Shown: positions 3,066 through 63,617 of the stretch, in pieces
How positions within the stretch are numbered: the stretch's first letter is position 1
Layout: each line of letters begins with the position of its first letter
DNA from: Branchiostoma floridae
Taxonomy: Eukaryota; Chordata; Leptocardii; Amphioxiformes; Branchiostomatidae
Length of the DNA stretch: 64,000 nt
Direction of reading: 5' to 3'
Assembly (NCBI RefSeq): GCF_000003815.2
Contig: NC_049981.1
Location: 28,794,917-28,858,916, forward strand
Position numbers and translations under genes: made by a program
The notes under the pieces: generated by a model
What the model was told of the DNA's origin: nothing
The model's database searches: none
The model's input: the letters and a program-made list of their open reading frames with translations, nothing else

Positions 3066-3705
3066 NNNNNNNNNNNNNNNNNNNNNNNNNNNNNNNNNNN
3101 NNNNNNNNNNNNNNNNNNNNNNNNNNNNNNNNNNNNNNNNNNNNNNNNNNNNNNNNNNNNNNNNNNNNNNNNNNNNNNNNNNNNNNNNNNNNNNNNNNNN
3201 NNNNNNNNNNNNNNNNNNNNNNNNNNNNNNNNNNNNNNNNNNNNNNNNNNNNNNNNNNNNNNNNNNNNNNNNNNNNNNNNNNNNNNNNNNNNNNNNNNNN
3301 NNNNNNNNNNNNNNNNNNNNNNNNNNNNNNNNNNNNNNNNNNNNNNNNNNNNNNNNNNNNNNNNNNNNNNNNNNNNNNNNNNNNNNNNNNNNNNNNNNNN
3401 NNNNNNNNNNNNNNNNNNNNNNNNNNNNNNNNNNNNNNNNNNNNNNNNNNNNNNNNNNNNNNNNNNNNNNNNNNNNNNNNNNNNNNNNNNNNNNNNNNNN
3501 NNNNNNNNNNNNNNNNNNNNNNNNNNNNNNNNNNNNNNNNNNNNNNNNNNNNNNNNNNNNNNNNNNNNNNNNNNNNNNNNNNNNNNNNNNNNNNNNNNNN
3601 NNNNNNNNNNNNNNNNNNNNNNNNNNNNNNNNNNNNNNNNNNNNNNNNNNNNNNNNNNNNNNNNNNNNNNNNNNNNNNNNNNNNNNNNNNNNNNNNNNNN
3701 NNNNN
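3066..3705. other. Assembly gap (640 N)
   Basis: Run of N. It lies directly 5' of the prokineticin-like exons and probably hides that gene's first exon(s), and it ends inside a MITE whose right half is at 3706-3783. Confidence 0.99.
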
Positions 3706-5127: not shown

Positions 5128-5190
5128 ACGGGCGCAGGAAAAATGCTTTTGGAAATTACGTTTCCAAGCTAATCACCATTAAAGGTTAAC

Positions 5191-5217
5191 CAAGGAGGTT
5201 AATTTTTAACCTCCTTG
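5191..5217. repeat. Nano-palindrome, 27 bp, with 7-bp direct repeats
   Basis: Two perfect 12-bp arms, CAAGGAGGTTAA and its complement, surround a TTT loop. The palindrome is flanked on both sides by GGTTAAC (5184-5190 and 5218-5224). It lies in the 3' flank of the prokineticin-like gene. Three further copies are at 23108, 39959 and 54739. The structure looks like a very small transposon insertion with a 7-bp target duplication. Confidence 0.7.
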
Positions 5218-7059
5218 GGTTAACGAATAGCATAGCGTGCGTGTGTCTTCATTGTAGCAACGTGTTGAATTGTTGTATTGCCTTGTTTGACCAAGGACGT
5301 TATATGAGGAGTTTGACGTTATACTTTTCTTTTCTCTTCTTCCATAGATACTTGTATTTCATCAGCTTAGCAAATCAACATATAATGGGTTCTTCGCTAT
5401 ACTTCAAAGGGACTGCCGGGTTGTTATGTAAAAATGCGCTTTACTGGTTTAATAGGCAAACACCCGGAAAAGTCACCATGGATTAAAAACGCCACGTAGC
5501 GATCAAGTATATCAAAGCAGTACTCCATGCAAGCACCATAGCTAACACTTTGTTGCAGTGCTTCAATCAACTGTTAGAAGTCGCTTTTGATTCACGCTCG
5601 TTTACCTTGGTAATTTTATAACACCTGTAGTCGTAAGTACTGCTAATAATTGTTGTGTTGTAGAGTGTTCTAATTATCGATTGATAAGTTTAACTTTATA
5701 GGCAGATGTGTCAATAACTATGTTCTATGGTCTGGAAACAAAAGCATAAAGCTTAGAATTAGCCCGGTAACATCACATAACACATTATCAAAATCGGGAA
5801 TAAGCATTATGTTTCATTAAAGAAGTTGTCCCTGAGCAGACGAGAACAGATGAGACCAGATGATGATAGTGGCCTTTTGCGACTTCCCAGTTTCTCGAAA
5901 TGATGAACATTTGGCAATTTGATGGTCCCCTTTGCCACTTTTATTACCCGAAACGGTACTGCTACTAAGGCCGTGATAGGGTATGTAGTCCAGACTTTTG
6001 ATATGTGAAAATATACAAGAATGTATCTTAGGCTTTGTGCTGGTGAAACCTTTCCCCGGTAGCCCAAGACATCTTTTCATACATGTTAAATAACATTTAC
6101 TACACTTGCTGACATAAATATAATTATTTTAGGTGCTGTGCGAGCATCCTGTATATAATGGTACAGATTGATATCAACACAAAGAAATCATATCAACAAT
6201 TGCTTTATTAGGTTCTCAGTCATCAAAAAGTTCTTGTTGCAACAATGTGTTAGCTTGGTGAGTTCCAACATGCCCAAACACTCATCAATTATGATAGTAG
6301 TGATGGGAGAATTTTAAGTGGTCATCATGAGGCATTCTTCATCAAATCTTCTACAAATACTTCAATTTGAGGTTTTCAGGAATTACTAGTAGCCATTATG
6401 ATAGCAAGCAACGTCCTCTAGCTATAGGATCCAGCCTGTGAATTATGGATTTTACATATTTTAATGTACCTTTAATCTTTTGATCACAAGACACTTCAAT
6501 ATATCTTCTCTGTCAATAAAGTAGTGGCATTATTAATGACACACTTAATATCTGTATAAATCTCAGCCTTGACAAGACCATTATCTGAATTTGCAAAAAG
6601 GAATCAGGTTTTTATCATTAAGAGCACATTGTCAAGTTCCATATCTTACTGCACACTGCCACAAAAATGTTGCACTTGATAATCATGATCGCATATTAAA
6701 AAATAGCAATGATTTAGTACCTTAGATTCAATTCATAAACTCCAAGTTACTAGTACTTCTTGGTTTTGTCCATCGAGACTTTCTACCAACTCCATCATAG
6801 ATGTAGTGGTAATTACTAATTAGTGTCTAACATACCAGACTAAACAGACTGTCTATCTAACATCCGTGAATAGCTTCATCAGGTTGGCAATTATTCATAT
6901 AGTAAGGTTCTTTTAGCACAACCAGAAAATAACTTACATCCAACGTTTCAGGTAGATCAGACACCATAATCAGGCTGAATAACGGGAACTACTTCTTGCT
7001 GCTACAATAGCCGATGAAGGTGGCCGTTTCCCCCTCCCCCAGAAAAACCCGAAAAGGGA

Positions 7060-20286: not shown

Positions 20287-23200
20287 ATGGAAACTACAGA
20301 CACGCATTCAGAACCAGACAAGCTGAATATCAATGCACCAGGGAGGCCCGTTGAAAAGGAATGCAATAATGTAAATCAAGACACAGACTGCAAGAACAGT
20401 GCTACTGATGTGAACATTAATGAGAAGTGCTCAGGAGAGGTTGAGGGGGGAGGCACCAAGGATATGGACCCAGAACAGGCGTACGCAGAGGGGAAAATAT
20501 CCAAGAAGCAGCTCAAGAGATTGAGGAGAGAAGAGGCATGGAGGAAGAAAAAAGAATTCCTCAAGTTAGTGAACAATCTATTTATGAATATTTAAGATTG
20601 GACACAGCATTAGCAAATCTTTAGGTGTATCTTGAGGGCCTCAAGTTGAGGCCATGGATTGTCATAATGAGTTTTACTCATGCATAATGTTGTGATGAAC
20701 TCCATTCCTGTGGAGGGACTTATAAGTATAGTAGTGTGGGTTAGGATTGAGTTAGTGCCAGGAAGTGAATGGACTGACAGCCATAGAGGTCATCAGTTCA
20801 CTGCCCCCTGAAATAGCCCAAATCGTGGGTCATTGCTTACAGGTCTATGTAATAACGTTACATAAACTTCTAGCGGCCGGCAATCATTGAAACTGAGTGA
20901 AAAATACACGTAGTACATTGAGCTCTATCTAAGACACGATCTACACACAGTTTTTTCCGATATCGGCGAGCCTACAACCTCTCGCCGACAGCTTTTTTTC
21001 ATCGTCTAGATGGAACTACTATATCGCCATGACGATATCGGGAAAATTTCTCCCGAAAGGTCCGGACCATTCGTACGATACCTTACCGATAGCTTAGCAG
21101 GGGTCCCCGACAGCTTCGCGCGCGTGTAGATGCTTCCTGACTTCGGGAAGGCTCATTAGCATATAACGCCATTTGGAAAATCGCGCTATATGTTTATGAC
21201 TGCAAGCGCCATGGGTGTCCGGCCCCCTACGTTCTAGATCCCTCCCGACATCTCCACAGATATCGGTAAAAACTGTGTGTAAATTGGGCCTAAAATGGCA
21301 GATGACAATCATTTTTCCAGAACAAAGCGGAAAGAGCAGCGTCGCCTGGAGGCACAGAAGCGGAAAGAGAAAGGAGAGCCGAACAAGAAGCGGCTGCGGC
21401 TGGAGTTTGAGAAGCGGCTGGAGACCAGTGACATCACCATCTCTGTGGATCTCAGCTTTGATGACTTGATGATGGAACAGGTGGGCTCATCGGGGGGCTA
21501 GTCTTCCACATGTTGTAACTAAAAAGACATTAATTAAGGGTTAATGACCCGCCCCGAGGTGTATGTGGTGTCATAACGNNNNNNNNNNNNNNNNNNNNNN
21601 NNNNNNNNNNNNNNNNNNNNNNNNNNNNNNNNNNNNNNNNNNNNNNNNNNNNNNNNNNNNNNNNNNNNNNNNNNNNNNACTCTTTGTCGATTTTTGAAAT
21701 TTACATTTGTTCTTTGGTACATACATTTGTAAGGAGATTACAGATTGCATTTTGAAACCAAAATTTCCACAGAAAATATTCGAAACATTGCAGTCTTTGG
21801 CTTTTCGGCCCATCCTATAGGTCGCAACCGCTTCCAGTAGTCTGCATGTCAAGTGACAACAGTTGGGATTTGAACTCCCAACCTGTAAAATGGTACAGAG
21901 GTGGAGGTACCAACCACTGGACTATAAACTCTAGAGAAATTATGAGAATCTGTTTTAAGCTTTTAGCCATATCGAATATACCTTTGTTTTGCACTCCAGG
22001 ACATCAAGAAGCTGATGAAGCAGATTGAGCGCTGTTATGCTGTGAACAAACGAGCGCCCGTCCCCGTACAGATGCACCTGTCCAGTCTGGGGGGGAGGTG
22101 CAGACACAGGATGGAGACAGCCATTGCTGGCTGGCAGGGATGGAAGGTAACGTTACATCAGGGCTCTAGCCAGCGTCCGTTTTTTCGTCAATTGACGGAA
22201 ATTTGCTGTGTGTGACGGAAAAATTTTTAAACCAATCCGTCAACTTTGACGGACAAAAATCCTTGTTGGAAGCTACAGGCGGCTTGTGGACGCCGTAAAA
22301 GCCACACACTGTTTGTTTTGCTATTGTTATTATTGTTGATGAAGTGTGTCGGCGCCCTTTCGCATACGATAATCTCATTAAAAACCCGTTTTTCAAGGTC
22401 TCAGTTCAGTCTTTCTAACTCCTGGAATAGTGTTTTCGCGGTTTTCGCGACAATGGGAATTGGCTGACGGAAAAAAAATTCGAGCTGGCTAGAGCCCTGC
22501 GTTACATTCTCACCTCACCTAGTCCCATCCTCATCAGGAGGGTCAGGGACCATGGTTGCCTCCAGCACAAGTCTCCTCCATCCATCCCTGTTCTAAGCCT
22601 TCTGTGTGCAGACAGCTAGAGAACTGCCTGTCCAGTCCCTGATTACATTTTACATTGAACAAAAGACATCAGTGCAGGGACAGAGTTACGATATTTGGTA
22701 TAGGTGCAAAGATATAGATGAGAAAAAATACGTGCGCATCAAGATTTTACTTGCACAACATAATGCTATGCAAGGTAACAGGAATTGGGTAGAATTTAGA
22801 AATAGACATCACCTTTTGCCTATTTCCAAAATCTTCCTGTTTCCAGTTGCTTGAGTAAAAAAAAAATCTTGCGTATCTTATAACCGGGATGTCAAACAAA
22901 GAGCAGTCAATTACGTACACACTTCCAATTTGACATGCACATAGTAGTGCATGCATGTGGTCATTTGAGCCCAACAGTTTCATATCATCACAGAAATATG
23001 GTGGATTATATCCAAAACATCTGAAAGATTTTCATTGCTTGGTGCAATGTGTTATCAATGTGTAATACTTAGTATAATCAATGTGTTGTGAATATGTTAT
23101 GTTAGTCCAAGGAGAAAAGCTCCTTGGTTAGTCCTAGTTGTGTATGGTCCAGCGTATTCAGCAGCACCTCCTAGAGGACAGGGTCAGTACTGCACCACCA

Positions 23201-25325: not shown

Positions 25326-26133
25326 CCCTGTACATTATGAATTTTGTACATTCCATTGATCCTTTTCAATACTAAAAGCTTTAAAGGAGAGTAGCAGTAG
25401 AATGTACCTCAACCAGCAAAACAACTTACTAAATATACATACATGTACTTGCTCTACATGATTATACATTGTAATATCAATCTAATTCTTAACCTATAGA
25501 GAAAGAATTGCATCTTAAAGTTGTAAAGATGCCCATGGACTATCATGGGATGGAAAGGTGGACCTACTGCACATCTACATGAGGTCTTCACCCTGCACCC
25601 TGCTAATGTAATCGTAGGTGTTTGGTAATCTCGAACCAGATCCACAGTGCGTAATGTATAGTATCAAACTTCCCGTTTGACTCCCTTGCCCGGCTACACT
25701 CCTTGGCCAGCTTTGATACTATCTTATGGCACTGTAGGATCTGCTTGGAGATTAGGTGTTTGGCATCACACCTGTAGTGGTTACAGGGTCACATTGTAGG
25801 TAGCAGGGAGAAGGCAGCACTTTTATACATTGTACAATTAACCGCAAATTGAAAAAGCTTTCTCTGGCTCTTCTTTTTTTAGATCCAATAGAACAATGGG
25901 TTTATATAAATTGATATCTTCTCGAGCTAAAACCAAGCCCTTCCATAATTTGATTTATTGATATGAAGTACAATAACATAAACGATATACTTTGTTGTGT
26001 TGTATAGACCCTAAAACATTTTTCATTCAAAATATATCAATGTATCAAAATGTAACAAGACTAGACATATCTTTTGCAGACTAACTTGAATTACAGTATA
26101 GACATATATGTACAGAACACTGTGAATTATCTG

Positions 26134-27183: not shown

Positions 27184-30100
27184 CTACTGCATGTTGTCAG
27201 CAGGGGGCTCTGGTGTCATGCCACCTGCCCTTCCTTGCGAGGTGGGTGTTTTCGTGTACCGTAGCTTTGGCTGCTCGGGAGCCTCCATCTTCGCGGTTGC
27301 TGATTGGGCCTGGCGGCTGTGCGATGTTTTTGCTGGTGACGGCGTGCGATGTGCCGGCGGGATCCTGACCGGAGGTGCCGTCTGCCCCTCCTGTGGGGAG
27401 TCTATCCTCAGCACCTCTGGGGGGTGAGACTGGCGACCGGGGTCAACTGGACCTACAAAAGAACAGGAGATCCCTCAATGAAATAAGGAGTATATGTATA
27501 TTGGAGCATGAAATTTTTCTTCTCTTCTGATATCGCGAATTGATTAATTTTGTAGACTAGATTTCAGAAAAAGATGTTTTTGCAATGTTCTCAGTTTAGT
27601 AGTGCTCATACAATGGAAATGCATGTTTGCGGTATCATGATTTAACATTTAAAAAATTTTTGCTGCTCACCTTCTTCAGGGATCGGCCCTCCGGCTGATC
27701 TCCTCACATCAGTGGCAAACTTGCTCATGTCCCCTCCCGCAGACCAGGAGTACCTGGTGTAGTTGGCGTCCCTGTCGGAGGTGTACGGCCGTTTCTCGTC
27801 AGGGTAGAACTCAGGGTTGACGTGATGCTTGTAGTACTCCTCCTCGCTCAATATCGCTGACTTGATCATGTCCAGAACAAGGTCCTTTTCTGTAATACAT
27901 CAGGTATGATATAAATATATTGGGTGTATTTGCAGCCAGTAGGTACCCAATTTTTTTTAAAGTACATTTTTGTAATGTCAAGGCTGATTGACGTGGTTCA
28001 GGTGCCTCCTTGAACACGGGACCCCCCCTAAGCCCACGGACGGGAGATCTAACTAAACATTGTATCCTTTATTTAATAGGAAAGTACCCAGGTGTAGAAT
28101 GGGCATACTTGACTTTGGTTAGGGTGAGCACGTCACCGGAACGTACTGCGCCTGCGCGAAAAGTATAGACATGCTTAACCTTGCTAAACCCCCGGTTTAC
28201 TAAAGGGCCGCATTTAAGAAAGTACGTGCGTATATAAGGGTAAAATCCCGTGTACGTTTTACATGAAACCATGTCTCTAACATATACTGTGCAACAAGCG
28301 GGATTTCAATGCAACGTTGACCAAACCAAGCCCCAAACCACCAGGGTTCACGCAGGCGCAGTACGTTCCGGTGACGTGCTGTTAGGGTGGTAACAGGTGG
28401 TGGAGGGAGAGAAATGGTCTCTACCTTCCAGTACCATGCCTGTAGGGATTGCAACCCACTGCCCATGGCTCTAGCCAGCTCGACATTTTTTTCCGTCAGC
28501 CAATTCCCATTGTCACGAAAACACTTTTCCAGGAGTTAGAGAGACTGAACTGAGACCTTAAAAAACGGGTTTTAATGAGATTATCGTATGCGAAAGGGCA
28601 CCGACACACATTGTCAACAATCATAACAATAGCAAAACAAACAGTGTGTGGCTTTTACGGCCGTGGACGGCGCCCCCAAGCCGCCTGTAGCTTCCACCAA
28701 GGATTTTTGTCCGTCAAGGTTGACGGATTGGTTTTAAAATTTTTCCGTCACACACAACAAATTTCCGTCAATTGGCGGAAAAACGGACGCTGGCTAGAGC
28801 CCTGTGTCTGATGCCCAAAGACTATCTTAGCAGGCTTATCAGGTTTATGTAAGTTGCACCTACCTCTCCCTGTTGCATTCACCAACCACTGCTGCACAGC
28901 TTGGATAGAGTCTGTCTGTAGGATCTGGCACAACATTTCCAGAACCTGGATGGAAGAACAGTCACAAGTCAAGTCAAGTTTATTGCACAACGATTGTATC
29001 AGGTACAATGTATGGCAAGTAACATGTATTACTAGCAACTACGAACTATCTACATGAGTATACTAATCTAACATAATAGAAAATAAGGCGGCATAGTGTA
29101 TTTTACATTGTTAAGGCACGACTTCTCTTTTGCATAGCATTATATATATATTGGCCTAGGTGGACAGATATGGAGTCGGAACATGATAGAATTACATTGA
29201 ATATTTCTCTACTGTCGACCAAAATTAATGTAGTGACACATGTAACTTGATTGGCATGACATATGACAATGACATCTCAGAGGACAACATGGAGTATAAT
29301 TTTCACAAAAAATTTTTATTTCAGCTAAAGTTTAGGAACTTGATTTGAAGCAAACACTACAGCTACTTTAACACATCCTATTTAATGAAATTTTAGCCTT
29401 TTTTGTATTTTTGACATGTATGTTGTAACTGTCAACTACTGTAAATGCAGAAATGTTCGCAGGTTTACGCGCTGACCACTTCACCGCGAACTTAAAACCA
29501 CCGCGAACATTTTTCTACTATAGTATTAGATTGCAGTCTATGGTGTTACCGCGAACTTAAAACCACCGCGAAAAGTCATTTCTGCCTCTACCGCGAAATT
29601 AAATCTCTGCATTTACAGTACCCGGTATTGTACAGAGTATGATTACAACTTTGTACAGATTTACCAAGACTTCTGCATTAGGATCGGGTGAGATATGCAT
29701 GAAGTGGTTGTAGCGACCCCCTTGGCGTGAGCCCTGTCGTGAAGCCTGGCGGGACATGGCGCGAGACGGCGGGGGAATGAGACGACCCGTCTCCTTCGAA
29801 TACTTGGTCTGTCGCTTGGGCAGGAGGTCGCGATCCTTGAGTTCCTGCTCTGTTGGTGGCGCCAGGCCGGCTTTCTCTACGATGTCTTTCAGTTCGTCTC
29901 TCCACGTGTTGTTCATGGAAGCTACAGGAACTAATAGAGGGCACAAGAGTACTGGTCAATTTATTTTTTAAATGTGAAAATTTGTATTTCAAGTGTTCCA
30001 TACTGGAAGCCCTACATTCTACATTGATTGGATGTACAACATAGCTTACCATGTCAATTATAAGAGTATCCTTCCCTTTCTTTTATGGTATCTATACATA

Positions 30101-33100
30101 TTTTTTACCCCATATTTAGCTAATTGTCTGAGATTCCAATGATTGTAGACTAGCATTTACATATGCTTGTTCACTGTTCATTTAGTCTTCTATCTTAATT
30201 TAGATTTAGGGGCACAGGGGACCACAGCAACTATAAGAAACTCCCTGTTCAAATACCATTGACATGTTAGATGGTTTTAACATTGAGAGAATGGACATTC
30301 TTCGTCCAAAATTGTGAGTAGAATCAATTCATATGTTCAACATAGTATACAGGTCATATCTTTTATTTATTTTCAATCAGAAGTGATAACAATAGGCCTG
30401 AATGTTGCTAGATTGAGAGCTCACCAAAACAAAAGATCATGAAAGGAAAAGTAACCTGTTGTAATGGTCTATGTAACATTCATGTGTACGTTTTGAAGCC
30501 CATCCAAGCGGCCATGTAACCTTATGATATGTTACTGTTTCTCTACATTGTTGGCCAGCCAACTGGTCCAGTTATTTGAAGCTGCACTGAACAATGTTGT
30601 GTTGATACGACGGTGTCATGTGACGTGGGCTATGGTACCTGATATGTTTATGATAGCTCATGCAAGGCAGGCTGGCATTTGTAGTATTTATGATGGTGAT
30701 AGGGATACTTTTACTGTTGATGTGTTTGGCCACAGGAGAAACAAAAAAAGCCATGGAACATTTAGTCCTTTCATTTGTGACAGCAGAGCCTGTAACCAAT
30801 GCTTCAACCTTTAAAAAACTTGGTCTCTTGACAGCAAAATGGTGTTCCCTTTCAGTCATAGATGTTTGTCAATGCCTACTAGATTAACGACAGCCAAGTC
30901 CAACTTCTTTTACCTTATAAGGATTACAACTCGAGTTGTTTTATTGCTGTTTGCTTTGTGTGAGTGGGTCAAAGGAATTGTGGTCCAATTATCCACTTAC
31001 AGGAGGAAATTGGTGGTAGATGGCAAGAGGTATGACAGGTAATAACATAATGCAAAAGCCCTACATTCTACATTGATTGGATGTGCAATATAGCTTACCA
31101 TGTCAATTATAAGAGTATCCTTCCCTTTCTTTTATAGTATCTGTACATATTTTTAGCCCATATTTTGTTAGCCAATTTTCTGAGATTTCAATGATTGTAG
31201 ACTAGCATTTACATATGCATGCTCACTGTTCATTTAGTCTTCTAATGACATTTCTATCTGAAATCCACAACGATAAAAGAGTTGCGACTGCAAAAAACAA
31301 ACTACAAACATACAGACTATTAAAACAATATTTACGTTATAAAGAAGAAGAATATCTGAAGATTGCCAATGTATGCCACAGATCTACCATCACAAAACTA
31401 AGAATCAGTTGCCACAAATTACGAATCGAATCAGGAAGACATAACCACACTCCTCTAGAGCAAAGAATATGCCAATTTTGTAGTTTAGGGAAAGTAGAAG
31501 ATGAAGTACATCTTACTATGGATTGTCCTTTCTATGATAGCGATAGGAACATTTTATTTGACTATGTGTTAAGTAAATATCTCCACTTTAGACACTTGAA
31601 CAGTAAAGAGAAATTTATATTCCTGACAGCTTTTGATAAACCAACTCTAACCAACCATACAGCTAGCTACATTTATGCAATTACCAAGAAGCGAGAGGAA
31701 GTCGAATGTCCTAGAATAGATTAGACGCACATCTGCATATATAGTTGTGTATGATTGTTTCCATTGTTACATATATGTGATTCTTACCGTGTGACCTGTA
31801 CTTAGCCCAGTGGGGCAAAAATGTGCAATAAAGGTCTTCATTCATTCTAATTTAGATTTTGGGGCACAGGGGAGCACAGCAACTATAAGAAACTCCCCGT
31901 TCAAATATCCTTGACATGGTAGATGGTATGACAGGTAATAACACAATGCAAAAGTCACTGTTCATGTTCAGTTGTTTCGCATGGTCTTTTTAGCGAATGC
32001 CCACAAACGCCCACTCTAGAGAAGTCCGCGCTGCACGAATCTCATTTTTTTTGCTTGGAATATGTCCACGTTGTGCTCCCATGTATTAATCCTGAGTTTC
32101 AAGTCAATCCATTGACCCGAAGTGACATAAATCAAAGTTTTCGATTCTCGATGGTCTTTTTAGCGAACGCCCAGCAAAATGTCTTTTTAGCGAATGCCCA
32201 CTATATCCACAAAAATATCGGCCGTCGCGCAACGACACCTAAATCTACCGCCACAAACATGTTCAAGATGGTGTCCCATTGATGTGTACGGAGTTTCCGT
32301 GCTTTACAAGCATTTTAAATCCCTGTTTTTGGTCAAAATGTACGGCGACGATACTACCATACTTTAAATATAGCAATTCAAAATGGCGGGCACTAGTCAT
32401 GTGACCTCCTTGCGGGACTGTTCTATAAGTATCGCGGGAGGGACTGTTGTAGCATAGCTTCTCATACAACCATTTTAGAGTGAATTCTGAACAAGATTTT
32501 CATTTCATAGTGCTATCATCTGACTGATATTTACAATGTGGTCATTTTTTCTGTGCTATTATTACCCAGGTTTGAGGAACTTAGTGCAAATTTGGATATT
32601 GATTCACCTCAGTGCCCAATTAATGTACAAAAGGCTCAGACACATTAGTGTTATAAACCTGAATAGGGGCAGGTAACCAATACTAGAAAAACATAGCTAT
32701 TTATTATTAACAATACTATTTACATTATAATAATAACTCTTCACCAAACTGGACTTTTCTTATCTTTATTTATCACAGAAACATTGTTACAATGAGGATT
32801 TGATTAGATGAGTATCTGTTACAGTGTGTACAAACTTATTTCAAATACAAAAATGTATTTCGTTTCACTTCCTAAATATTTTTAAAGTATTGGAAGAAGT
32901 TGACACATAAACAATATTAATTGCATTATTTATGTGCAGTAAAATGTGACCACATGCTATCAATAGCCTAATAAAATGTTGGAACATGGCACAAGCGGGC
33001 TCCCCTTCTGAGTACAGAAAGGAAATGTTTTATAACATTTAGTTATGACGTAGAAAATTTCAATTGTAAAATGTACCTTTATTAACATTTACAAACAAAT

Positions 33101-36100
33101 TGTTTTTTCTCTTCTTAATAAATGACAACATTACAGGTAAGTAAGGTGTGTTTCCTTTTATAACAGGCCAGGTAAGACGCCGTACAGGTAATTAAGGTGT
33201 GTTTCCTTTTATAGCAGACCAGGTAAGACACCGTACAGGTGAGTAAGGTGTGTTTCCTTGACTACAGACTAGGTAAGACACCGTACAGGTGAGCAACGTG
33301 TATTTCCTTTCATTACAGACCAGGTAAGACACCGTACAGGTGAGTAACGTGTATTTCCTTTGAATACAGACCAGGTAAGACACCGTACAGGTGAGTAAGG
33401 TGTGTTTCCTTGAATACAGACTAGGTAAGACACCGTACAGGTGAGTAACGTGTATTTCCTTTGATTACAGACCAGGTAAGACACCGCGCAGATGAGTAAG
33501 GCGTCTTTCCTTTGCCTATAGACCAGATAGGGCATTATACAGGTAAGTAAGTTGCTTTACTCACCTGTTTAATACCTATCTGGTCTATAGGCAAAGGAAA
33601 GTTGCTTTACTCACCTGTATAATACCCTGTCTGGTCTATAGGCAAAGTAAAGACATCTTACTTACCAGTATAATGGCCTATCTGGTCTATAGGCAAAGGA
33701 AAGACATCTTACTCACCTGTTTAATGGCCTATCTGGTCTATAGGCAAAGGAAAGACACCTTATCCACCTGTATAATGGCCTATCTGGTATATAGACAAGG
33801 GAAAGACACCTTACTTACCTGTATAATGCCCCATCTGGTATATAGGCGAAGGAAAGACACCTAACTTACCTGTATAATACCCTATCTGGTCTACAGGCAA
33901 AGGAAAGTTGCTTTACTCACCTGCATAATACCCTATCTGGTCTATAGGCAAAGGAAAGACGCCTTACTCACCTGTATAATGGCCTATATGGTATATAGGC
34001 AAAGGAAAGACGCCTTACTCACCTGTGTAATACCCTATCTGGTCTATAGACAAAGGAAACACACCTTACTCACCTGTGCGGTGTCTTACCTGGTCTGTAA
34101 TGAAAGGAAATACACGTTACTCACCTGTATGGTGTCTTACCTGGTCTGTAATCAAAGGAAATACACGTTACTCACATGCACGGTGTCATACCTGGTCTGT
34201 TATAAAAAGAAACACACCTTACTTACCTGTACGGTGTCTTACATAGTCTGTAGTCAAGGAAACACACCTTACTCACCTGTACGGTGTCTTACCTGGTCTG
34301 TAATCAAAGGAAATACACGTTACTCACCTGTACGGTGTCTTACCTAGTCTATAGTCAAGGAAACACACCTTACTCACCTGTACGGTGTCTTACCTGGTCT
34401 GCTATAAAAGGAAACACACCTTACTCACCTATACGGCGTCTTACCTGGCCTGTTATAAAAGGAAACACACCTTACTTACCTGTATTGTTGTCATTTATTA
34501 AGAAGAGAAAAAAACAATTTGTTTGTAAATGTTAATAAAGGTACATTTTACAATTGAAATTTTCTACGTCATAACTAAATGTTATAAAACATTTCCTTTC
34601 TGTACTCAGAAGAGGAGCCCGCTTGTGCCATGTTCCAACATTTTATTAGGCTATTGATAGCATGTGGTCACATTTTACTGCACATAAATAATGCAATTAA
34701 TATTGTTTATGTGTCAACTTCTTCCAATACTTTAAAAATATTTAGGAAGTGAAACGAAATACATTTTTGTATTTGAAATAAGTTTGTACACACTGTAACA
34801 GATACTCATCTAATCAAATCCTCATTGTAACAATGTTTCTGTGACAAATAAAGATAAGAAAAGTCCAGTTTGGTGAAGAGTTATTATTATAATGTAAATA
34901 GTATTGTTAATAATAAATAGCTATGTTTTTCTAGTATTGGTTACCTGCCCCTATTCAGATTTATAACACTAATGTGTCTGAGCCTTTTGTACATTAATTG
35001 GGCACTGAGGTGAATCAATATCCAAATTTGCACTAAGTTCCTCAAACCTGGGTAATAATAGCACAGAAAAAATGACCACATTGTAAATATCAGTCAGATG
35101 ATAGCACTATGAAATGAAAATCTTGTTCAGAATTCACTCTAAAATGGTTGTATGAGAAGCTATGCTACAACAGTCCCTCCCGCGATACTTATAGAACAGT
35201 CCCGCAAGGAGGTCACATGACTAGTGCCCGCCATTTTGAATTGCTATAGTTAAAGTATGGTAGTATCGTCGCCGTACATTTTGACCAAAAACAGGGATTT
35301 AAAATGCTTGTGAAGCATGGAAACTCCGTACACATCAATGGGACACCATCTTGAACATGTTTGTGGCGGTATGTTTAGGTGTCGTTGCGCGACGGCCGAT
35401 ATTTTTGTGGATATAGTGGGCATTCGCTAAAAAGACATTTTGCTGGGCGTTCGCTAAAAAGACCATCGAGAATCGAAAACTTTGATTTATGTCACTTCGG
35501 GTCAATGGATTGACTTGAAACTCAGGATTAATACATGGGAGCACAACGTGGACATATTCCAAGCAAAAAAAATGAGATTCGTGCAGCGCGGACTTCTCTA
35601 GAGTGGGCGTTTGTGGGCATTCGCTAAAAAGACCCTCCCCAGTTGTTTGAGTAACTATTATATTGTGATAAAGGAGTTAATAGAAGATTTTCTGCTGACC
35701 TGCTGTAGATTGATTGTACAAATTTACTATTGATATTTTGGCATGAACCCCACCTATTGTTAGACTACTCCATGTTTGATCATAGTGTAGTAACAGACTG
35801 TACATATTCCTTAAGGTTTCCCAGTATTTTGACAAATGTACTACATGTATTTGTCTTTCCTGACTGTTCCACTGCCCATGTACTGCATGTTAAGTTACAC
35901 ATGTAATTCGTCCAGACACACCAGTATATGTTATCCCTCCATGTGCAATAGTACTCGACTGTACAAACACTAGTCTTAGTGGTTGACAAATGTACCTTTG
36001 TTGTTGTTGTTCTTAATAAAATAAAATAAAAAAAAGATTTCTGCTGACCTAAGCCAATCCTGGGGACTGCCTTCTCCTTGAAGGGGAAGTTCTGCAGGCC

Positions 36101-37638: not shown

Positions 37639-39958
37639 GCTGTAGGGAAAAAGGAGGCAGAAAGAAAGGTCTCAGTCTCACTTTTTTCATAGATTAAAAC
37701 CCAGAACGTCGAAGGCGTCGTTCGTCTTTCGTCGTCCGATTTTTTCTCACACAGTTGAATTGCGTACGCGCTGAACGTCAACATTTAACTGAATGAGAGA
37801 AAAATGATGACACGACCAAATAAATTTCCAGTGGTCAAAACGCTCATTGACGTTGCCTATTGTAGTTCGCTCTGATTGAAACCTTTTTCTGTACAGATCG
37901 CCATACGTACTTTACAGTCCGACCATTTTTCCTTGAACAATCCGTTTCTTTGTCGAACTGATGACTGAAGCAGGAAAATGAAAACATGGTGGGGTACTAC
38001 TGCTGCCTCCGATACAATATTGTGAAAGTTCCTACCAACCATATCCTATAGTTGTTTTGAAAAGAAACTCTAACGTACTTCCGAGAGCAGCTCAATGGCC
38101 ATTCAAGTTGCCGCAGCTGAATATTAAATCGCAAAGCCAAATGTTATCATCTCAACAATGAGAACAAACGCCATTATAAGAGCCGCATTTGATACGCAAC
38201 GTCTTTTCACTCGATTGTTTCGGATCTAAATATTTCGTATCAAGAGGCCCTCCGTTACATGGAGTCAGATGCAACAAGAGGACACGCTTAGCGTGCTGTG
38301 ACGTCTAGCGGAAAGTGGTCTTACGTTTTGTCCTGTCGTCGCATGGCAAACTCACGGTGAAATACAATTCCCAGTCACGAAGATCGCTGCTCTAACGCGG
38401 CTACAACTTTCCCTGGGCTCTACATTTGGCCAAGTCAGAGTCGACGCCCGCTCGCTAACGTCGCAAATGTTTGTCTCCATGGCGACACGCCCCAGCTGTC
38501 CGACGTCCTACCTGGGTGTCCCAATCTGATGTGTGTCCGAAAAACACCGGGCTATTCATCAAGGGCCGCTTCCTTTCTTAAGGGTGCCCGCATTGACGGC
38601 TGGATTAGGCACTGTGCATACCACGAGTGGAGCGACAAACACCGGTATATGTCTGCATGGCAACAAACACCCCTATCATCCCGCTGTTGGGCATGGCGGA
38701 ATATGTGCGTCGATTTAATCACGACTGTTTCATTGTTGCCCGACAGGTGGGTTACAGGTACCGACAGCTACGTCATGGCAGTCAATTCCGACAATCAATC
38801 AGTACTTTTTAAAAGAAAAAAAAATGACTCGACAACTTGGTAGAGATAACAAGACGATAGGTCCTACTTAAGAATGTAAAATCCCTTGCTTTTGACGTTT
38901 CCTTAATATCGATATTTATACGAAGAGTGGTATGATTTATAATGGTCGGTTCTCGTCGCCAAGACCCGCCCTCTGCAAATATCGAGTTACCAAGGGACAC
39001 ATGTCGTGTGTACCCACCGTTTATATAGTAAACTGTCTTATCCTTCTATTGGCCTTAATTAGTCCGGTCTGGAGAGCAACGTCGTGCGAGTAGGTAGCCA
39101 ATGATAGTACTGTATCCGTATCCATATAGCCAGTCTTTCAGTATAACGCACCAGCTATGCAGGAACCCAGCACCGCAACAGCTGGACATATTACACTGCA
39201 CAACCCGTCACACCTAACCTCTGCACATCTCGCTGCAAATGTTGTTTGAAGCTTTCTACACTGCCTAGTGAGAATGCTTCTCTTGTACTTAGTGACCCTT
39301 AGTGGCAACGAGCTCCACTCCATGATACGTCTTAGGAAGTCGACATTCCTTTACCTAAATAAATAACGTTGCGGCTCTTTATTAAACTAACGTATCATGG
39401 CCTCATAAGATACAGGTACAGCTATTGTCACCTGGCTTTTACCGATTTGATGGTCAATTATTGAAACATCGCACTGTCCATTTAGCACCCAATATCCATG
39501 AAATCACTCGTCATTCCTCCACACGACACACCCTTTGTTGGTTTTGCCTCTGTCTGGTTGTATGCAGAGGTGTCCGTGTGTGTAGCTGTGTTTGGTAGAT
39601 ATATTTATTTTGACGTACAACGTTCAGCATCGAGTGACATGCTCCTGTATTCAAATTTGCCTAACACGTCCTTTCAAGGGGCGGTATTAAACATAGATGC
39701 CACATCAGGGGACATCGACAATAAAATTAGTTTGTACGGTTCCGTAGAATAGGAAAAGAAAGGTAGTTTCTGATTCTTTTTCTTGGGTCTAGCATTTATG
39801 CCAGGGCACGCAAAGATGCAACGTCAAAGAGACGAAAAATCTTAAGAGAGAAAACTACGCGTTCCAAGAGGTAGTTTAGAAACACACTGGTGAGTTGGCT
39901 GATTATCATGATATCACATGATAAACAGAATTATGATATAAGACGAAGTGGTACACAT

Positions 39959-39988
39959 CAAGGAGGTTGACAAAACTTAACCTCCTTG
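39959..39988. repeat. Nano-palindrome, 30 bp, with 7-bp direct repeats
   Basis: Arms CAAGGAGGTT and AACCTCCTTG, flanked by TACACAT (39952-39958, 39989-39995); the repeat can be extended to GTACACATCA depending on where the terminus is drawn. Third copy of the 5191/23108 type. Confidence 0.7.
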
Positions 39989-40440
39989 TACACATCAAAC
40001 GTCAGTGCTGTTAGGGCCACACAAACATCAACGTCACAAAAAGGTTACGTCACGCCACGTCACAACTTTTCGGGTACCTCTTCGGATTCCGGTCCTTTGA
40101 GACTGGTCTCATCTCCACTTTCCCTGTCATCTTTCACTTTTCTTTCACACCTGCTGAAGAAAATCACTGGTGAGCACGTTAACAGGTGACTAAAAACCCG
40201 ACACACACCTACTCTTCTCATGTACTCAAGTAAGCGGAAATGACGTAAGCAAAACGAAAAAGTTTCTGAAACCTTACAGAGCGGATATACTAGTAGTTAA
40301 CGTTACATCTAGTCTAGATATGCGTAGAGTGAAATGTTTTCATCTTGACATAAAGTACTACAACCCAGCTGTATTAAGAAATGCATTTGATAGCTTTGTG
40401 GTGGGGAGTGAAGTAAGGTAAAGCAGTTACTCATCGAGGT

Positions 40441-50630: not shown

Positions 50631-63617
<12,987 letters not shown>

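Follow-up and report, generated by a model that had tools for sequence, protein, structure and literature searches.

Short palindromes between 7-bp duplications as probable excision scars of P-superfamily-like transposons

The window (the whole stretch of DNA analysed here, 64 kb) contains a reading frame at 63003-63617 in which a CCHC zinc knuckle was detected (PF13696, E 8.7e-12), along with a weak match to terminal uridylyltransferase 4, and other frames matched the MTP lipid-binding domain (PF19444) and SPATIAL (93 of 131 frames scanned). Taken together, these domain matches point to an animal host. An earlier note had reported palindromes at four loci, each enclosed by exact, locus-specific 7-bp repeats, and all four were found as described, none of them with an assigned strand. 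The first (5184..5224) is composed of GGTTAAC, a 27-bp palindrome (5191-5217) in which TTT lies between two joined CAAGGAGGTTAA arms, and a second GGTTAAC. The second (23101..23133) displays 19 bp (23108-23126) between two copies of GTTAGTC, and the third (39952..39995) displays 30 bp (39959-39988) between two copies of TACACAT. At the fourth (54732..54783), 38 bp (54739-54776) are flanked by GTTTATG; the right arm is just TCCTTG, and the term palindrome does not cleanly apply here. One more CAAGG...CCTTG pair was encountered in the window at 27979-28012, with no flanking repeat (2/7).

A third copy of GTTTATG inside the insert of the fourth locus looks like templated filler, as judged from this single locus; such filler is known from polymerase theta-dependent joining according to PMC2895639. 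Two similar cases elsewhere in the genome (L140 and L147) were considered as well; their internal target copy also belongs to the normal arms found in other subfamilies, and thus provides no evidence for filler.

Agreement of this kind is rare by chance. In 20 first-order shuffles of the window, 7-bp repeats bounding an insert of 8-80 bp with at least six inverted end bases occurred with a mean of 0.1 per window, against seven in the real window, which bears out the earlier view that four perfect repeats were unlikely to be fortuitous. The seven were composed of the four loci above, two cases in a tandem array and an unrelated one at 52585-52606, where an 8-bp palindrome, CACCGGTG, is flanked by exact 7-bp repeats ACACGAG; the latter may have been left by another family or be a chance match. 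A scan of all CAA...TTG inserts of the window added a fifth, diverged candidate at 58462..58504 (GTCACAT, CAATATTATATAAAGTTATAACCTCCTTG, GTTACAT; flanks 6/7; no strand assigned), the remaining 6/7 matches of that scan looking like chance. Two one-armed candidates, likewise without assigned strand, were also noted. That at 61563..61586 reads CTTCTAT, AAGCTCCTTG, CTTCTAT, its arm being identical to the outermost 10 nt of the parent end presented below. That at 5285..5317 reads GTTTGAC, CAAGGACGTTATATGAGGA, GTTTGAC, and its insert repeats GACGTTATA, a sequence that extends across the second duplication into the right flank. Both are weak on their own, as shuffled windows yielded a mean of 0.735 cases per window in which an exact repeat accompanied one arm or more.

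The genome from which the window derives (513.4 Mb, 431 contigs) was searched for CAAGGAG-N2-25-CTCCTTG, which was present at 3069 places as compared with 41 for the reversed control, a 75-fold excess. Flanks were inspected at 50 of these 3069 places, all fetched, being the first on contig C1 and not a random draw. Exact repeats were displayed by 29 (28 of 7 bp in register and one exact 8-bp repeat, at L128), 6/7 repeats by 11 and lower agreement by 10, so that 40 of the 50 reached at least 6/7; the ten palindromes below this level speak against reading them as scars. At random positions in 20 of the 50 loci, exact matches amounted to 326 out of 400,000 (0.08 %) and matches of at least 6/7 to 1552 out of 400,000 (0.39 %). 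The comparison with controls that the earlier note had proposed thus leaves the genome-wide excess standing. This genome seems to keep thousands of such scars, although extending that reading to all 3069 palindromes is an extrapolation from the 50.

Another conceivable origin is that these palindromes arose by chance or are hairpins with a function, for example as sites of protein binding. Similar palindromes do exist elsewhere, at least 123 of them (gap 6-20) being found in viral contigs. Among the viral matches listed, none had 7/7 flanks and one had 6/7 flanks, and these served as a null set; three long viral matches showed no 7-bp duplications. Set against 0 of the 123 viral matches listed, the 29 exact, locus-specific duplications among 50 and the 75-fold excess over the reversed control make this explanation almost negligible.

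Longer elements with matching ends and a duplication were found neither in the 64-kb window nor in the 262 kb scanned. Genome-wide, a 16-nt arm, CAAGGAGCTTTTATCA, which is the outer end of the CAAGGAGCTTTTATCAG subfamily, served as search word; it occurred at 549 + 559 places and at none in the control. Among 100 matches listed, at least four facing pairs lay 1187-1190 bp apart, and at least four intact elements of ~1.19 kb accordingly end in CAAGGAGCTTTTATCAG. Three of these four parents displayed clean 7-bp duplications (ATAAAAC, GCCTACC and GTATACC), while the fourth (L168) sits in a CA repeat, where a duplication is unreadable. Parents L168, L169 and L170 were 98.3-99.6 % identical as aligned, the remaining one being in the other orientation. 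Agreement between their inverted ends is perfect over 17 nt and continues with mismatches to about 27-31. In parent L169, nine of the eleven listed reading frames were scanned and no transposase domain was detected in them; two matches below the cut-off were both to unrelated families. The ~1.19-kb parents look non-autonomous. Within the window, the right arm of the second locus, AAAAGCTCCTTG, is identical to the outer 12 nt of this parent end and fits the parent directly. The arms of the first, third and fourth loci are of GGTTAA/GGTCAA type, a parent being known for the CAAGGAGCTTTTATCAG subfamily only.

The remaining 92 of the 100 matches listed corresponded to 84 sites; all but one, on contig C2, were fetched (83). 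Sixteen were excluded from the count, namely 15 copies belonging to a single dispersed repeat and L180, a duplicate of L179; the 67 sites left represent one subfamily and come almost entirely from one contig. Since one arm had to match the 16-nt search word from its tip, this set is informative just on where arms end beyond nucleotide 16, and arms shorter than that are outside the sample. Agreement with the parent end was seen in 38 of the 67 at position 17, dropping to 19 at position 18, with 27, 13 and 10 at positions 19, 20 and 21, respectively. The unbroken match to the parent ended at 16 in 29 sites and at 17 in 25, together 54 out of 67. In a further 11 it ended at 18-21, and in two, L176 and L178, it extended further. 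Two sites counted among the 67, L178 and L219, represent ends of elements and not scars; in L178 the parental sequence runs on, and in L219 it resumes after a short repeat of the tip.

The dispersed repeat is characterised by the flank TAGCTTCCAC or near variants, and a one-armed CAAGGAGCTTTTATCAG remnant was present in its 15 fetched copies (L172-L174, L182, L190, L200, L229, L231-L233, L237, L238, L241, L243 and L244). The same repeat occurs in the window at about 28698 and 22260, with a shorter CAAGGA at the place of the remnant. Since the remnant is common to the 15 copies, it seems to be an old scar amplified inside another repeat.

Loss of parental sequence at nucleotide 17 bears on whether the short forms could simply be internal-deletion derivatives, formed by aborted gap repair of any cut-and-paste transposon with nothing special in its cut geometry. 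Gap repair followed by joining is described as common after P excision (PMC2895639), and L176, which retains 34 nt of the left end together with exactly 17 nt of the right end, would suit such a process. A broad range of retained lengths would be predicted, yet agreement with the parent drops at 17 to 18, and an unbroken match past nucleotide 21 was found in just two of the 67, one of them an element end. This general form of the explanation is therefore judged quite improbable. L176 is as expected if some copying came before joining.

Exact 7-bp duplications flanked 40 of the 67 sites, and duplications of at least 6/7 flanked 52. The search scanned 59 offsets, and 7-mers located 8-14 bp further out were used as shifted controls; these gave 6 out of 462 exact and 60 out of 462 at 6/7. 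The exact duplications are thus far above the control, while those at 6/7 (11-12 of the 67) are no better than chance given the many offsets scanned; 27 of the 67 sites were without an exact duplication. Base composition of the duplications revealed a GT...AC-like consensus with a preference for GTnnnAC: at positions 1-2, G was found in 22 and T in 33 of the 40 exact sites, and at positions 6-7, A in 29 and C in 23. The corresponding figures for 25 exact sites of the palindrome set, five of which are shared with the 40, were 12, 15, 20 and 15.

Inserts at the 40 exact sites were 18-51 bp long, 38 of them not exceeding 38 bp. Their junctions comprised 19 with extra bases, a class inflated by later point mutations in the arms, 11 that were blunt and 10 with an overlap of 1-2 nt. 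One 31-bp join was shared by five sites with different targets, and another four inserts occurred twice each. Centres differed between most short sites, with a few inserts recurring, and the sharing of whole sequence expected of MITE copies was not observed in them, though it was in the 1.19-kb parents.

The earlier note had offered three readings, a minimal transposon among them. On a view of this kind, the 19-38-bp palindromes would themselves be mobile and moved in trans by a transposase recognising CAAGGAG. Exact 7-bp duplications agree with it, as does the identical 31-bp insert at five different targets. Most loci, however, differ in their centre, yet their outer arms match the 1.19-kb parent until nucleotide 17, and one-armed and filler-bearing forms occur as well. 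In a Drosophila P experiment, too, one and the same join was recovered 14 times (PMC2895639). Mobility of the palindromes themselves is thus highly improbable; they are probably not minimal transposons, and the insert would be what remained of an excision. The word insertions in the title of that note is likewise unsupported, insertion being recorded by the 7-bp duplication alone. Its other two suggestions, an excision remnant and a repair-generated sequence, gain support from the existence of the ~1.19-kb parents and from the point, nucleotide 17, at which arms of that subfamily depart from the parental sequence.

From these sequence comparisons, the palindromes are very probably end-joined excision scars of P-superfamily-like transposons. 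A DNA transposon of this kind, with inverted ends starting CAAGGAG, would insert and duplicate 7 bp of its target (GTnnnAC). Its transposase, presumably of P type, would later excise it by cutting one strand at the edge of the element and the other about 17 nt inside, and about 17 nt of each end would stay on the broken donor chromosome. End joining would then fuse the two overhangs, either directly, by an overlap of 1-2 nt, following some trimming or with the addition of a few bases, and the two facing end remnants would form a palindrome between both copies of the duplication.

The assignment to the P superfamily is suggested by cut geometry, duplication length and target motif. Target duplications of 7-8 bp, typical of this superfamily, were found in the parents (7 bp in three out of four) and in the scars (7 bp, one of 8 bp), and the palindromic GT...AC target preference was present too. 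Retention of ~17 nt of each end at the donor cut was indicated indirectly, in one subfamily. Members of the superfamily combine terminal inverted repeats with internal transposase-binding sites; of this combination, inverted ends were observed in the parents. Their transposase is characterised by THAP, RNase H and GTP-binding insertion domains. No transposase domain was detected in the 93 of 131 window reading frames scanned or in the nine frames of the parent, and a profile search with PF21788 gave no match in this genome, nor in any of the control genomes, and is hence uninformative.

As no transposase was identified here, the elements could instead come from a different superfamily that duplicates 7 bp of target and likewise leaves long remnants of its ends. 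Dada transposons, for instance, generate duplications of 6-7 bp. To our knowledge, however, transposon groups other than P cut with shorter overhangs. The GT...AC preference, the CA...TG ends and the remnants of about 17 nt all fit the P superfamily, whose 17-nt stagger is termed unusually long in PMC7776569, and another superfamily is accordingly regarded as unlikely.

P transposase is described as making this 17-nt staggered cut at each end of the element (PMC7776569), and scars left by Drosophila P consist of one copy of the duplication, remnants of the two ends (17 nt at most) with the join between them, and the other copy (PMC2895639, Table 1). By our own reading of that table, 63 out of 66 P{wa} junctions keep both duplications, and inserts range from 4 to 44 bp with a median of 30. 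The sites reported here resemble these footprints in that both target duplications are kept together with inverted-end remnants of up to 17 nt, in their joins by short overlap, blunt ends or inserted bases, in the recurrence of one join and in insert size. Drosophila P differs in its 8-bp duplication and in that excision was laboratory-induced, whereas duplications here are of 7 bp, the scars are natural and numerous in one genome, and the end sequence is different. By the same reading of the table, 20 of the 63 Drosophila junctions leave at most 7 nt and 40 have at least six inverted end bases; the former class would be invisible to the searches used here.

Galileo, a Drosophila member of the P superfamily, is reported to generate duplications of 7 bp and occasionally 8 bp, with a target consensus of GTAGTAC, GTANTAC or GTATTAC (PMC2775673, PMC4168063). 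The elements described here are similar in their 7-bp duplications, in their GT..AC-like target and in the single 8-bp case (L128). Galileo's inverted ends are long, unlike the 17 perfect nt found here, imperfect to about 27-31, and the resemblance concerns duplication and target. In a comparison of rice species, footprints of DNA-transposon excision were described from 94 putative excisions between two aligned genomes (PMC4423477). Filler-bearing scars serve there, as here, as a record of past excision; unlike those of that study, the present scars are recognisable within a single genome. Among the matches listed from a literature search on bivalve or mollusc P elements and on palindromic or P-element footprints, no description of such sites was seen, subscription papers being largely uncovered, and the listed matches to the arm sequence as literature text looked unrelated, as judged by title.

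P-type excision scars are already known from Drosophila experiments, and those reported here are natural. They can be recognised in one genome because each retains the two copies of the target along with part of each end. Such natural scars, probably thousands, would amount to a countable record of sites since vacated by P-like elements and to an extensive collection of junctions from natural double-strand-break repair, arising from a known starting structure. They also provide indirect evidence that a cut of 17 nt is not confined to Drosophila P, and they call for caution, as such scars can be mistaken for miniature transposons. In the CAAGGAGCTTTTATCAG subfamily, scar sites with exact duplication outnumbered intact elements by 40 to 4 among the 100 matches listed. 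One speculative and rather doubtful explanation is that the lineage clears P-like elements efficiently, through a burst of transposase or a retained one, so that scars exceed intact copies and the assembly is an excision fossil record. If true, that record would also preserve the natural end-joining spectrum of an animal.

Two further structures of the window were distinct from the CAAGGAG group. At 26087-26129, a CA...TG insert with other ends, CAGTATAGACATATATGTACAGAACACTG, lies between exact 7-bp repeats TGAATTA. A 3.65-kb foldback at 31983-35634 is composed of two inverted arms of 1.57 kb, 96.8 % identical, with 51-bp tandem repeats, and is bounded by a 9-bp direct repeat, CAGTTGTTT, located 5 bp outside the matching arms. 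Its 9-bp repeat and different ends led to its rejection as a relative; it is possibly a Mutator-like foldback element.
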